In this document: piece by piece, positions 12,442-16,631 of the stretch
How positions within the stretch are numbered: position 1 is the stretch's first letter
Layout of the letters: every line of letters starts with the position of its first letter
From: Burkholderia multivorans ATCC BAA-247
GTDB taxonomy: Bacteria > Pseudomonadota > Gammaproteobacteria > Burkholderiales > Burkholderiaceae
Direction: 5' to 3'
DNA length: 64,000 nucleotides
Assembly (NCBI RefSeq): GCF_000959525.1
Contig: NZ_CP009832.1
Location: 2,542,001 to 2,606,000, forward strand
The notes under the pieces: model-generated
Databases searched by the model: none
Seen by the model: the letters and a program-made list of their open reading frames with translations, nothing else
What the model was told of the DNA's origin: nothing
Program-made: the position numbers and the translations under genes

Positions 12442-12948
12442 GTGGCCGACACGTCCGCCCTTCCCGCCGCGGCCGACGTGCCGTCCGTCCGCCGGCGGCT
12501 CGCCGCGATGCTCTACGAGGCCGTGCTGCTGTTCGGCGTCGTATTCTTCGCGGGCCTCGCGTTCGGCCTGGCGACGCAGCAACGCAACGGCCTCGTCCAT
12601 CACAACCTGCTTGCCGCCTGGATCGCGCTCGTCGTCGGGGCGTATTTCGTCTGGTTCTGGACGCACGGCGGCCAGACGCTGCCGATGAAGACCTGGCGGC
12701 TGCGGCTCGAAGCCGCGAACGGCCGGCCGCTGAGCGCGGGTCACGCGATCGTCCGCTATGCGCTCGGCTGGCTGTGGTTCCTGCCGCCGCTCGCGCTGCA
12801 CCCGCTGCTCGGGCTGTCCGTGCCCGTCACGCTCGCGCTCGCGGCCGCGTGGATCGTCGTCTGGGCCGGCGCGGCCCGGCTGCACGCGGATCGCCAGTTT
12901 CCGCACGACCGGCTCGCGCGCACGCGCATCGTCGCGATGCCGCACTGA
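12442..12948 (+). CDS. RDD-family membrane protein
   Basis: A 168-residue inner-membrane protein with about three membrane segments. The RDD signature near the N-terminus appears as RRLAAMLYEAVLLFG, with Glu where many members have Asp. A second characteristic stretch, TLPMKTWRLRLEA, follows the second membrane segment. It starts at a GTG six bases after the DUF3106 stop, so it is the last gene of the sigma/DUF3619/DUF3106/RDD unit. RDD proteins have been linked to ion transport in some bacteria, but no substrate can be read from this one. Confidence 0.82.
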   Translation: MADTSALPAAADVPSVRRRLAAMLYEAVLLFGVVFFAGLAFGLATQQRNGLVHHNLLAAWIALVVGAYFVWFWTHGGQTLPMKTWRLRLEAANGRPLSAGHAIVRYALGWLWFLPPLALHPLLGLSVPVTLALAAAWIVVWAGAARLHADRQFPHDRLARTRIVAMPH

Positions 12949-13106
12949 CGCTGCGCGCGACATCGTTCGCGCCGCGCTCATCCGTCCGACGAAAACGCCG
13001 GCCTGCCTGGCCGCGCCGGCCTCGCCCACGTCCAACGCACGCCGCGCAACAGCGCGACATTCACTGCTAAACATACCGCACGGGACGTAATAAGAACGTC
13101 TTGTGA

Positions 13107-13124
13107 CTGTCATGGCGCAGTCAC
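13107..13124 (+). promoter_or_regulatory. PHO box (PhoB-binding site) upstream of plcP
   Basis: CTGTCATGGCGCAGTCAC is an 18-base pair of direct repeats, CTGTCAT-N4-CAGTCAC. It differs at one repeat position from the classical CTGTCAT-N4-CTGTCAC PHO box. A further CTGTCAT occurs at 13143. Ten bases beyond the box, CGCAAT (13135-13140) could serve as the -10, with the PHO box replacing the -35 as in PhoB-activated promoters. The first gene starts at 13171. Confidence 0.68.
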
Positions 13125-13170
13125 GCCCGCATGGCGCAATGCCTGTCATGTCAACCGGCGCGAGTCATGC

Positions 13171-14109
13171 ATGGGCCAGAAAACGTCCGCGACCTCCCTG
13201 TTCCGTCACCCTTTCGGCGCCCGCGCCGCCACCGCGTTCCTGTCCGGCGCCGCCGCGACCGACACGCCGTCGCGCGACGCGGCGCCCGCCGAGCCCGTCT
13301 CGCGACACGACGATCCGGCGCCGCCCGCGCACCGCTACCGCACGATCTGGCTGTCCGACATCCATCTCGGCTCGAGCGGCTGCCAGGCGTCGTACCTGCT
13401 CGACTTCCTGCGCCACAACGAGTCGGAATACCTGTATCTGGTCGGCGACATCATCGACGGCTGGCAACTGAAGAAGGGCTGGTACTGGCCGCAGGCGCAC
13501 AACGACGTCGTGCAGAAGATCCTGCGCAAGGCGCGCAAGGGCACGCAGGTCGTCTACATCCCCGGCAATCACGACGAGGGCGCGCGGCAGTTCTGCGACC
13601 TCGCGTTCGGCGACATCCAGGTGCGCGGCGAAGCGTTCCATACGACGCTCGCAGGCAAACGTTTGTGGATCGTGCACGGCGACCTGTTCGACGGCGTGAT
13701 CCAGCACGCGAAATGGCTCGCGTATCTCGGCGACACGCTCTACACGCTGATCCTCGTGCTGAACCGCTGGTTCAACCGGATCCGCAGTCGGCTCGGCTTC
13801 CAGTATTGGTCGCTGTCGCAGTACCTGAAGCATCAGGTCAAGAACGCGGTCAACTTCATCTCGCAGTTCGAGAGCGTGATGACCGACGAAGCGCGCCGGC
13901 GCGGCTGCGACGGCGTCGTGTGCGGACACATCCACAAGGCCGAGATCCGCGACATCGACGGCGTGCTGTATTGCAACGACGGCGACTGGGTCGAGAGCCT
14001 GTCCGCGCTCGTCGAAACGCTGGAAGGCGAACTGAAGATCGTCTACTGGACGGTGATGCGCACCGCACCGTCCGCCGCCCCGGCGCGCAAGACGCGCGCC
14101 GCGGCCTGA
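13171..14109 (+). CDS. plcP: PlcP-like phospholipase C (metallophosphoesterase)
   Basis: A 312-residue calcineurin-like phosphoesterase, often labelled UDP-2,3-diacylglucosamine diphosphatase-like. Metal-binding motifs are Asp63/His65 (LSDIHLGS), Asp93 (VGDIIDGW), Asn133/His134 (PGNHDEG), then HGDLFD and GHIHKAEI. The long shared stretches around WYWPQAHNDVVQKILRK, YWSLSQYLKHQVKNAVNFIS and GDWVESLSALVE are those I associate with PlcP, which in Sinorhizobium cleaves phosphatidylcholine and phosphatidylethanolamine to diacylglycerol under phosphate starvation, rather than LpxH. The PHO box upstream, and the glycosyltransferase and diacylglycerol kinase downstream, support that reading. An unusual 55-residue N-terminal extension precedes the domain. 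PlcP function is inferred. Confidence 0.75.
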   Translation: MGQKTSATSLFRHPFGARAATAFLSGAAATDTPSRDAAPAEPVSRHDDPAPPAHRYRTIWLSDIHLGSSGCQASYLLDFLRHNESEYLYLVGDIIDGWQLKKGWYWPQAHNDVVQKILRKARKGTQVVYIPGNHDEGARQFCDLAFGDIQVRGEAFHTTLAGKRLWIVHGDLFDGVIQHAKWLAYLGDTLYTLILVLNRWFNRIRSRLGFQYWSLSQYLKHQVKNAVNFISQFESVMTDEARRRGCDGVVCGHIHKAEIRDIDGVLYCNDGDWVESLSALVETLEGELKIVYWTVMRTAPSAAPARKTRAAA

Positions 14110-14138
14110 CCTCCACCTCTTACAGGACACATGCCGCG

Positions 14139-15173
14139 ATGAAGATCATGATCGTCACCGACGCGTGGGAACCGCAGGTCAACGGCGTCGTGCGCACGCT
14201 GAAGAGCACGTCGCGCGAGCTCACCGCGCTCGGCCACCGCGTCGAACTGCTGACGCCGCTCGAATTCCGCACGGTGCCCTGCCCGACCTATCCCGAAATC
14301 CGCCTGTCGATCCTGCCGTATCGCAAGCTGCGCGAACGGATCGACGCATTCGCACCCGACGCACTGCACATCGCGACCGAAGGCCCGCTCGGCCTCGCCG
14401 CGCGCCGTTACGCGCGCGCACGCAAGCTGCCGTTCACGACCGCCTATCACACGCGCTTTCCCGAATACGTGCAGGCGCGTTTCGGAATTCCGCTCGCGGC
14501 GACCTACCGCTTCCTGCGGTGGTTCCACGGCCCGTCGCTCGCGGTGATGGCGCCGACGCCCGTGGTTCGGCAGGATCTCGAAAAGTACGGGTTCACGAAC
14601 GTCGTGCTGTGGACGCGCGGCGTCGACCTCGACATCTTCCGGCCGATGGAGTCGAAGGTGCTCAATACCGCGCGGCCGATCTTCCTGTACGTCGGGCGCG
14701 TCGCGATCGAGAAGAACGTCGAGGCGTTCCTGCGTCTCGATCTGCCGGGCTCGAAGTGGGTCGCGGGCGAAGGTCCGGCGCTCGCCGAGCTGAAGTCGCG
14801 CTATCCGGAGGCGAACTATCTCGGCGTGTTGTCGCAGGCCGAGCTCGCGAAGGTGTATGCTGCGGCCGACGTGTTCGTGTTCCCGAGTCGCACCGACACG
14901 TTCGGCCTCGTGCTGCTCGAGGCGCTCGCCTGCGGCACGCCGGTCGCCGCCTATCCGGTGACGGGCCCGATCGACGTGCTCGGCGACGGCGGCGCCGGCG
15001 CGATGCACGAGGATCTGCAGGAAGCCTGCCTCGAAGCGCTGAAGATCGAACGCTCGACCGCGCGTGCGTGGGCCGAGCGCTTCTCTTGGCGCGCGGCGTC
15101 CGAGCAGTTCGCGTCGCACCTGAAGCCGCTGCCGAAGACCGCGTACTCGCCTGCCGAAGGTGCCGCCGTTTGA
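14139..15173 (+). CDS. Agt-like GT4 glycosyltransferase, probable diacylglycerol glycosyltransferase
   Basis: A 344-residue GT-B glycosyltransferase of family 4. The N-terminal acceptor domain starts KIMIVTDAWEPQVNGVVRTL, and the C-terminal nucleotide-sugar domain has YVGRVAIEKN, GEGPAL and the FPSRTDTFGLVLLEALACGTP motif. Proteins of this type next to plcP (Agt) make glycosyl-diacylglycerols that replace phospholipids in phosphate-limited alphaproteobacteria. The ATG at 14139 lies 29 bases after plcP. The linked diacylglycerol kinase supports diacylglycerol as the acceptor. The sugar donor cannot be read from the sequence, and a mannosyltransferase role remains possible. Confidence 0.75.
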   Translation: MKIMIVTDAWEPQVNGVVRTLKSTSRELTALGHRVELLTPLEFRTVPCPTYPEIRLSILPYRKLRERIDAFAPDALHIATEGPLGLAARRYARARKLPFTTAYHTRFPEYVQARFGIPLAATYRFLRWFHGPSLAVMAPTPVVRQDLEKYGFTNVVLWTRGVDLDIFRPMESKVLNTARPIFLYVGRVAIEKNVEAFLRLDLPGSKWVAGEGPALAELKSRYPEANYLGVLSQAELAKVYAAADVFVFPSRTDTFGLVLLEALACGTPVAAYPVTGPIDVLGDGGAGAMHEDLQEACLEALKIERSTARAWAERFSWRAASEQFASHLKPLPKTAYSPAEGAAV

Positions 15174-15211
15174 AACGAGATCTGCACGACAAGACCGCGC
15201 TGTCCGCCGCC

Positions 15212-15706
15212 ATGCCGACGCGGCACGGGCCGTTCGACGAGGACGACGCGCATGCCGACACGGACACGCATGCGCACGAACCGCTCGGGCCCGACGATCC
15301 GCTGTCGCCGCTGCCGCCGAATCCGTACAAGCGCCACCGCGGGATCACGCGCGCGTGGTACGCGCTCAAGCATTCGCTGAATGGCTTTCGCGTCGCGATC
15401 CGCGAAGAAAGCGCGTTTCGTCAGGAGCTCACGCTGGCGGCACTGATGCTGCCGATCGGTGCATTCGCACCGGTGCCGGCCGCGTCGCGCGCGCTGCTGA
15501 TCGGCTCGGTGCTGCTCGTGCTGATCGTCGAGCTGCTGAATTCGAGCGTCGAAGCCGCGATCGATCGTATCTCGCTCGAGCGCCACGAGCTGTCCAAACG
15601 CGCGAAGGACCTCGGCAGCGCGGCCGTGACGGTCGCGCTGTTCGCCTGCGTGACGACGTGGGGCTTCGTGCTCGGGCCGGTCGTCGCGCGCTGGCTCGGC
15701 TTCTAG
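15212..15706 (+). CDS. dgkA: Diacylglycerol kinase
   Basis: Small integral-membrane kinase that phosphorylates diacylglycerol to phosphatidic acid. The catalytic core is clear: the surface helix RAWYALKHSLNGFRVAIREE, then membrane helices, and the signature ELLNSSVEAAIDRIS...HELSKRAKDLGSAAV. The protein is longer than the 120-residue norm (164 residues) because of a hydrophilic N-terminal extension rich in Asp and His. A TTG at 15170 overlapping the glycosyltransferase stop would add 14 residues and would couple the two genes. Here it could recycle diacylglycerol released by PlcP. Confidence 0.9.
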   Translation: MPTRHGPFDEDDAHADTDTHAHEPLGPDDPLSPLPPNPYKRHRGITRAWYALKHSLNGFRVAIREESAFRQELTLAALMLPIGAFAPVPAASRALLIGSVLLVLIVELLNSSVEAAIDRISLERHELSKRAKDLGSAAVTVALFACVTTWGFVLGPVVARWLGF

Positions 15707-15800
15707 GCACGCACCTGCGCACTCTGCGCGTGCGGCGCTGCACCATCCGCGCGCTGCGCACCGAATCACGAAATGCGCGCGGTGTCGCGAAACCCCGGTT

Positions 15801-15806
15801 TATAAT
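15801..15806 (+). promoter_or_regulatory. -10 element upstream of the TetR-family gene
   Basis: A consensus TATAAT lies about 90 bases before the regulator's ATG. No matching -35 is evident at 16-18 bases upstream, so activation or an imperfect -35 is implied. Confidence 0.45.
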
Positions 15807-15896
15807 CGTCCGCTAGATTGAGCACAGCAACCCGCGCCGGACGAATCCGCAGCATCTGCAGCGCCCGCCAGTCCGGCACACACAGGGCCGGACGAC

Positions 15897-16631
15897 ATGG
15901 AAGCGAAACCTCCCCGCCGCACCCGCGAACGGATTCTCGAGTTGTCGTTGAAACTCTTCAACGAGATCGGCGAACCGAACGTCACGACGACGACGATCGC
16001 CGAGGAAATGGAAATCAGTCCAGGCAACCTGTACTACCATTTCCGCAACAAGGACGACATCATCAACAGCATCTTCGCGCAGTTCGAGCAGCAGATCGAA
16101 CGGCGTCTGCGCTTCCCCGAAGATCACCGTCCGACGATCGACGAAACCTGGTCGTATCTGCAGTACATGGCCGATTTCATGTGGACCTACCGGTTCCTGT
16201 ATCGCGACCTGAACGACCTGCTCGCCCGCAACCGCACGCTCGAGACGCACTTCAAGCAGATCATCAGCCACAAGGTGCGCTTCGCGCGCGAGATGTGCGA
16301 ACTGCTCGTGTCCGATGCGGAGATGGTCGCGACGCCCGCCGAAATCGAAGTGATCGCAACCAACATGGCCGTGATCTCGACGTACTGGCTGTCGTATCAG
16401 TACGTCATGCATCCGCGCAAGTACAACGACCAGGACGCGATCCGCGAGGAGCTGCACCAGGTCAGCATGCATGTGATCTCGGTGATGGCGCCGTATCTGC
16501 GCGGGCGCTCGCGCCAGCTGTTCGACGATCTCGTGTCCGGCAAGCTGCCGAAGCGCGAATTCACCGACTACCTGCCGCCGCGCGACGGTTCGCCGCGGGC
16601 GGCGGCGGCCGCGAAGGACACGAAGCAATGA
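15897..16631 (+). CDS. TetR-family transcriptional regulator
   Basis: A 244-residue regulator. The N-terminal TetR DNA-binding domain (about residues 8-55) reads RTRERILELSLKLFNEIGEPNVTTTTIAEEMEISPGNLYYHFRNKDDI, with the helix-turn-helix and the typical YYHF segment. The remaining 180 residues are a helical ligand-binding/dimerisation domain with aromatic clusters (MADFMWTYRFLYRDLND). It overlaps the next gene by ATGA. The ligand is not predictable from sequence; the operon with a LOG-family protein and an SDR does not reveal the signal. Confidence 0.9.
   Translation: MEAKPPRRTRERILELSLKLFNEIGEPNVTTTTIAEEMEISPGNLYYHFRNKDDIINSIFAQFEQQIERRLRFPEDHRPTIDETWSYLQYMADFMWTYRFLYRDLNDLLARNRTLETHFKQIISHKVRFAREMCELLVSDAEMVATPAEIEVIATNMAVISTYWLSYQYVMHPRKYNDQDAIREELHQVSMHVISVMAPYLRGRSRQLFDDLVSGKLPKREFTDYLPPRDGSPRAAAAAKDTKQ

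Follow-up and report, generated by a model that had tools for sequence, protein, structure and literature searches.

The window analysed here is a stretch of 64,000 nucleotides from Burkholderia multivorans ATCC BAA-247 (contig NZ_CP009832.1, positions 2,542,001 to 2,606,000 of the forward strand; genome of 6.3 Mb in three contigs), and the subject of this work is a cluster of three genes, plcP, agt and dgkA, that follows a PHO box within it. All coordinates refer to the window. The PHO box (13107–13124, + strand) has its first base 64 bases 5′ of the plcP start, and the three open reading frames follow on the same strand. plcP (13171–14109, 312 aa; Pfam Metallophos) encodes a predicted intracellular phospholipase C of the metallophosphoesterase superfamily, agt (14139–15173, 344 aa; Glyco_transf_4/Glycos_transf_1) a GT4 glycosyltransferase of the Agt1 type predicted to glycosylate diacylglycerol (DAG), and dgkA (15170–15706, 178 aa; DAGK_prokar) a DAG kinase. 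The plcP stop and the agt start are 29 bases apart, and the TGA stop of agt overlaps the proposed TTG start of dgkA at 15170–15173; a later start for dgkA may be possible. A preliminary description, made from the letters alone, had listed the same order of box, metallophosphoesterase, GT4 enzyme and DgkA with short gaps, and the coordinates, Pfam matches, gap and overlap agree with it. By PlcP identity, the closest named relatives in our scan, whose list may leave out the window's own record, are B. dolosa (92%) and B. pseudomultivorans (93%). We interpret the locus as an operon, plcP-agt-dgkA, that PhoB controls and that remodels membrane lipids when phosphate is low, a reading to which we assign a probability of roughly 0.78.

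The box, CTGTCATGGCGCAGTCAC, matches 12 of the 14 informative bases of CTGTCATNNNNCTGTCAT. As a motif by itself it is weak, since, when up to three mismatches are allowed, the 64-kb window holds two matches where 1.72 are expected; the motif-only case was therefore dropped and positional conservation used instead. The survey comprised 81 loci (that of the window is one of them); sufficient upstream sequence was available for 80, and in 60 of these 80 the best upstream site has at least 11 of 14 matches (shuffled upstreams average 8.6). Among 37 named Burkholderia, Paraburkholderia and Caballeronia loci (L042–L079 minus L058, whose upstream sequence is too short), the box starts 62–64 bases 5′ of the aligned start in 33. 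At the other four (L074, L075, L077, L078) it lies 114–249 bases 5′ of alignments that begin at residue 4 to 47, and these late alignment starts account for only part of the larger offset. Averaged over the 14 box positions, the top base has a frequency of 0.91 in 39 aligned rows, versus 0.60 upstream and 0.71 downstream, and in the 400 bases 5′ of plcP the box score was reached by none of 100 shuffles. The PHO box of the preliminary description is borne out by this conservation. From the end of the box to the plcP start there are 46 bases here and 44 in Pseudomonas aeruginosa; the stretches fetched from the latter we take, from gene order, to be PA3219–PA3218 (plcP-agt1) and PA0842 (agt2). 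Genome-wide, with up to two mismatches, the pattern has 14 matches versus three for a reversed control. The neighbours of the 13 sites other than the window's were listed and eight proteins beside seven of them searched with Pfam. Two of the seven sites are of phosphate type, one 5′ of a PstS-like binding protein and one beside a phosphoesterase-family gene.

Two further conserved elements lie near the box. A 20-base element (13087–13106, + strand; consensus GTAAtAAGAactTCTcgTGA, containing the near-palindrome AAGAAcTTCT) abuts it and is conserved in Burkholderia-group loci; two strict patterns for its core found no copy at the 13 other PHO-box loci of the genome. The conserved GGCgcAATgC (13133–13142, + strand) is placed near the expected −10 region of a PhoB-activated promoter and may function there.

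PlcP is present in all 65 genomes surveyed for the genus; sampling showed it in 70 of 150 genomes of the order and in 58 of 185 of the class, which we take to be Gammaproteobacteria in the GTDB sense. At each of the 48 named loci L042–L089, plcP is followed on its own strand by matches to agt and dgkA (that to agt is partial in L078); among the other 32 named loci, some of them on contigs that end early, agt stands just after plcP in 28, 12 of which also have dgkA. For the order sample we counted 71 PlcP places, having set aside two of the 73 as partial and weak, and 73 Agt rows gave 70 places after merging of split matches. Group A PlcPs, at least 57% identical to that of the window, have agt adjacent at 34 of 48 places, a count that includes one 39% identical glycosyltransferase (GT) 3.5 kb away.

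The product of the third gene scores 109 bits against DAGK_prokar (threshold 22.3) and carries ELLNSSVEAAID, which we take to be the DgkA signature. The genome has no second DAGK_prokar match, in a search that covered this family of DAG kinases and not others such as the YegS type. The Pfam domain of DgkA is preceded by an N-terminal extension of 66 residues (15170–15367), partly rich in His, Asp and Glu, which is also found in the Burkholderia loci listed.

The preliminary description had DgkA recycling surplus DAG, and gene linkage lends this comparative support. Of the 41 genomes in the class sample that have both genes, 10 carry dgkA and plcP no more than 4 kb apart, against an expectation of 0.18 when every genome is taken as 2.7 Mb. 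As a control we used LpxH, which like PlcP is a lipid enzyme of the metallophosphoesterase superfamily; in none of 91 genomes does it come that close to dgkA (Fisher p = 3.6e-6 among the matches listed, which cover 150 of the 174 genomes with an LpxH match). The linked genes occur as plcP-GT-dgkA (L187, L188), plcP-GT-dgkA-Agt2 (L192), dgkA-plcP-agt (L184) and dgkA-plcP (L189), and divergently as dgkA versus plcP-agt (L185) or plcP (L186). In the order sample, 11 of the 31 places with a GT 36–40% identical to the window Agt have a same-strand dgkA upstream, within ∼0.9 kb, in seven families; identity to P. aeruginosa Agt2 is 47–52% for twelve GTs of this type taken from fetched loci, of which seven have dgkA upstream. 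These data support a view of DgkA as a recurrent partner of PlcP that would remove surplus DAG. In other Burkholderiales families (L127, L128, L129, L132, L136), genes that look from their sequences like gcvP halves and a thiol peroxidase are followed by dgkA and an Agt2-type GT.

A DAG kinase has already been named in PHO-dependent remodelling. In Pseudomonas putida BIRD-1 DagK, together with PlcP, is enriched at low phosphate, and the discussion of that study counts both among the PHO-dependent lipid-remodelling proteins (PMC5082522). Like DgkA in the reading proposed here, DagK, which may belong to the DgkA family or to another, is a DAG kinase that accompanies PlcP at low phosphate; unlike the adjacent genes of the window, DagK and PlcP are not described as linked in the available portions of the report (PMC5082522). 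The open-access literature searched yielded no description of plcP–dgkA gene linkage, nor of PlcP-Agt glycolipids in Burkholderia.

Several observations weigh against the interpretation of the locus as a three-gene PhoB-controlled operon. The window box is two bases off consensus, and five of the seven searched PHO-box sites of the genome are without a plain phosphate link, among them the best-scoring one (one mismatch, before an MFS transporter). Some of the genome-wide matches are probably chance, and it is therefore conservation that carries the case for the box. For dgkA, 31 of the 41 class genomes with both genes leave it unlinked to plcP, the gene is third at only nine of the 48 group A places of the order sample, and just two of 22 class genomes link Agt2 to dgkA. 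Not all of the ten linked cases are independent: two belong to a single family, and an apparent glycine-cleavage neighbourhood is common to several dgkA genes (L185, L190; L127–L129, L132, L136; names from sequence reading). In Burkholderiaceae a wider block is kept, with an RDD gene at 45 and a TetR gene at 46 of 48 loci, so dgkA linkage within the family is not alone evidence of shared function, and we rejected it as functional proof. The results sentence of the P. putida study on proteins missing in a phoBR mutant names PlcP and not DagK (PMC5082522). Finally, as the only DgkA-family gene of the genome, dgkA may be a housekeeping enzyme.

This last point can be developed into an alternative in which plcP and agt remodel the membrane at low phosphate and dgkA, a housekeeping gene located downstream of them by chance, has an internal promoter of its own and recycles DAG from lipid A and glucan modification. 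A housekeeping role for a sole DgkA-family gene would indeed fit poorly with control by PhoB only, and both the retention of the wider block and the absence of dgkA from the side of plcP in most sampled genomes agree with such a role. A chance neighbour fits less well with the start/stop overlap, which is identical in 10 of 10 Burkholderia loci listed (L042–L051), or with a plcP–dgkA linkage that recurs in several orders and strands while the listed LpxH control gives 0/91. A consensus scan of 12940–15960 found no sigma-70-type promoter, a null that says little because only 0.2 sites are expected. We consider the chance association the less likely reading, though not a remote one, and keep dgkA within the proposed operon. 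A broader generalization, that DgkA is a genetic partner of PlcP and GTs in general, with DAG producer, capper and kinase repeatedly grouped so that DAG cannot accumulate and remodelling is reversible, and that this has gone furthest in Burkholderiaceae, where the sole DgkA-family gene stands in a phosphate-starvation operon, is one we offer tentatively.

Of the two P. aeruginosa enzymes, the window Agt is closer to Agt1 (53.3% identity) than to Agt2 (30.7%). In a GT tree, from which one unrelated GT (Parabacteroides) was excluded and whose Agt2-type set is without the GTs of L130, L133 and L134, it falls inside the Agt1-type clade (97/98) with rhizobial, methylobacterial and sphingomonad Agts, and outside the Agt2 clade, which is separate at 100/99. 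The placement agrees with the name agt that the preliminary description had given the gene. No second Agt was found in the genome (the next best GT is a partial 34% match), and a query with P. aeruginosa Agt2 had no match at E 1e-60. His104, GRVAIEKN and FPSRTDTFG of the window protein correspond to the catalytic His and the motifs GRVAxEKN and FPSxTDTFG, the motifs published for, and shown to matter in, SAR11 GTcp (PMC8231724). P. aeruginosa Agt1 itself fails the strict motif patterns, so the fit is supportive rather than required.

From this placement we predict monoglucosyl-DAG as the main product. Both the Agt of Agrobacterium tumefaciens (atu2297; PMC3972451) and SAR11 GTcp (PMC8231724) are reported to make glycosyl-DAG. 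They accept several UDP-sugars, and since they do, the donor sugar of the window Agt cannot be read from its clade; their likeness to it lies in the motifs for GTcp and in the described product for both. Because the A. tumefaciens enzyme uses UDP-glucose and UDP-glucuronate (PMC3972451), glucuronosyl-DAG is possibly a product as well. The same breadth of donors would allow an enzyme that makes something other than glucosyl-DAG, using another sugar or an acceptor such as phosphatidylglycerol, and the best NCBIfam match of the window Agt is GlcN_PG_synth. That match, at 85.5 bits, is far under the 480-bit cut-off; the GTcp motifs are kept, and the clade is shared with P. aeruginosa Agt1, which is described as making monoglucosyldiacylglycerol from UDP-glucose and DAG (PMC8528852). 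We therefore regard a different acceptor or sugar as distinctly improbable and retain the assignment of Agt as a predicted DAG glucosyltransferase.

For the first gene the reference sequences were the P. aeruginosa PlcP and the S. meliloti PlcP of record CP090106.1, which we take to be SMc00171 from its context, an acyl-homoserine-lactone synthase and a LuxR gene nearby. The window PlcP is 52.0% identical to the S. meliloti and 51.7% to the P. aeruginosa protein. The alignment has all of DxH, GDxxD, GNHDE, HGD and GHxH in the window protein, presumably the metal-site motifs of metallophosphoesterases. The identity measured between the two references is 46.6%, in agreement with the published 46% for PA3219 and S. 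meliloti PlcP (PMC8528852), which supports the identification of both. By contrast, identity to four LpxH proteins is at most 27%, and a tree separates 29 PlcP rows from four LpxH rows at 100/100 (several end branches are long and the bootstrap is not fully settled). Against the LpxH equivalog model TIGR01854 the window protein scores 35.2 bits versus a cut-off of 190.35, whereas a separate true LpxH elsewhere in the genome scores 224 bits. The window protein has GNHDE where the three LpxH rows aligned have GNRDF, and a short PlcP-type insert that is missing from the LpxH rows. Searches of solved structures returned merely weak or general relatives. The name UDP-2,3-diacylglucosamine diphosphatase, given in 24 of the 31 matching records of a plasmid collection (those of S. 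meliloti and P. aeruginosa included), would make the gene product an LpxH-like lipid A enzyme; in the light of this alignment, tree and scores that reading is highly improbable, and we rejected it. The family assignment is to PlcP, with hydrolysis of phospholipids to DAG as the predicted activity. The preliminary description had called the gene PlcP, and its warning that it is easily misannotated as LpxH-like was right, given how many of those records carry the LpxH-type name.

The first 54 residues of PlcP (13171–13332) find matches chiefly in Burkholderia, Paraburkholderia and genera close to them; elsewhere homology mostly begins at about residue 55. Codon-position differences to four Burkholderia loci suggest that this stretch is translated but weakly constrained. 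A second PlcP-like gene, 47% identical to that of the window, occurs in one of the 65 Burkholderia genomes (G197:C6:31546-32352). A second PlcP subgroup (L138, L139, L141), accompanied by one or two GT4 genes, lies near apparent pstSCAB genes (names from sequence reading). Three P. aeruginosa records of 96–167 kb labelled as plasmids carry plcP-agt1, among them L168 (NZ_CP137508.1). CP090106.1 (L167), a 3.7-Mb S. meliloti record labelled pSymB that carries plcP, looks by size and content like a mislabelled chromosome. Metagenome-assembled genomes titled Bordetella (L080) and Klebsiella pneumoniae (L116) have plcP-agt genes of the Burkholderiales type (PlcP identity 82% and 68%), so that their titles or bins look wrong.

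The nearest known system is plcP-agt1 of P. aeruginosa (PA3219–PA3218), where, as here, a PHO box (10/14 there) precedes plcP and an adjacent Agt1-type gene; PlcP is 52% and Agt1 53% identical to the window's. Unlike the window, the P. aeruginosa stretch examined is without dgkA, and that species has in addition agt2 (PA0842), for which the window's genome has no counterpart that we found. The PlcP of S. meliloti belongs to the same family (52%), and the stretch examined there, again unlike the window, has neither agt nor dgkA annotated. Given the placement of PlcP and Agt, the conserved box and the presence of PlcP in every genome surveyed for the genus, the first two genes are, by sequence criteria, the known PlcP-Agt remodelling system in Burkholderiaceae, and the dgkA extension is the added part. 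PlcP-Agt function has been demonstrated in P. aeruginosa (PMC8528852), so a system of this kind is not new outside alphaproteobacteria. The preliminary description had extended an alphaproteobacterial scheme to Burkholderia; gene placement fits that extension, and P. aeruginosa precedes it as a case outside alphaproteobacteria (PMC8528852).

For PhoB binding, co-transcription, translational coupling, the enzyme activities, the sugar and the role of DgkA, we infer the following scheme. PhoB would bind at 13107–13124 and start a single transcript. PlcP would split phospholipids into DAG and a phosphoalcohol, from which phosphate would be recovered, and Agt would transfer a sugar from UDP-glucose, possibly UDP-glucuronate, onto the DAG, yielding a glycolipid free of phosphorus. 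DgkA, probably coupled translationally to Agt, would phosphorylate DAG unused by Agt to phosphatidic acid, which would hold DAG under harmful levels and allow the lipid to return to phospholipid synthesis once phosphate is back. Because DgkA spends ATP phosphate, its presence in an operon that saves phosphate makes most sense if it guards against DAG and keeps remodelling reversible, rather than adding to the saving.

If this scheme is correct, a genus of soil, plant-associated and opportunistic bacteria would exchange phospholipid for glycolipid at low phosphate by means of a gene annotated in databases as encoding a lipid A enzyme. The same lipid swap is reported to be protective against polymyxin B in P. 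aeruginosa (PMC8528852). The recurrent linkage to dgkA would also make a neglected question, the fate of DAG produced beyond the capping capacity of Agt, an answerable one.

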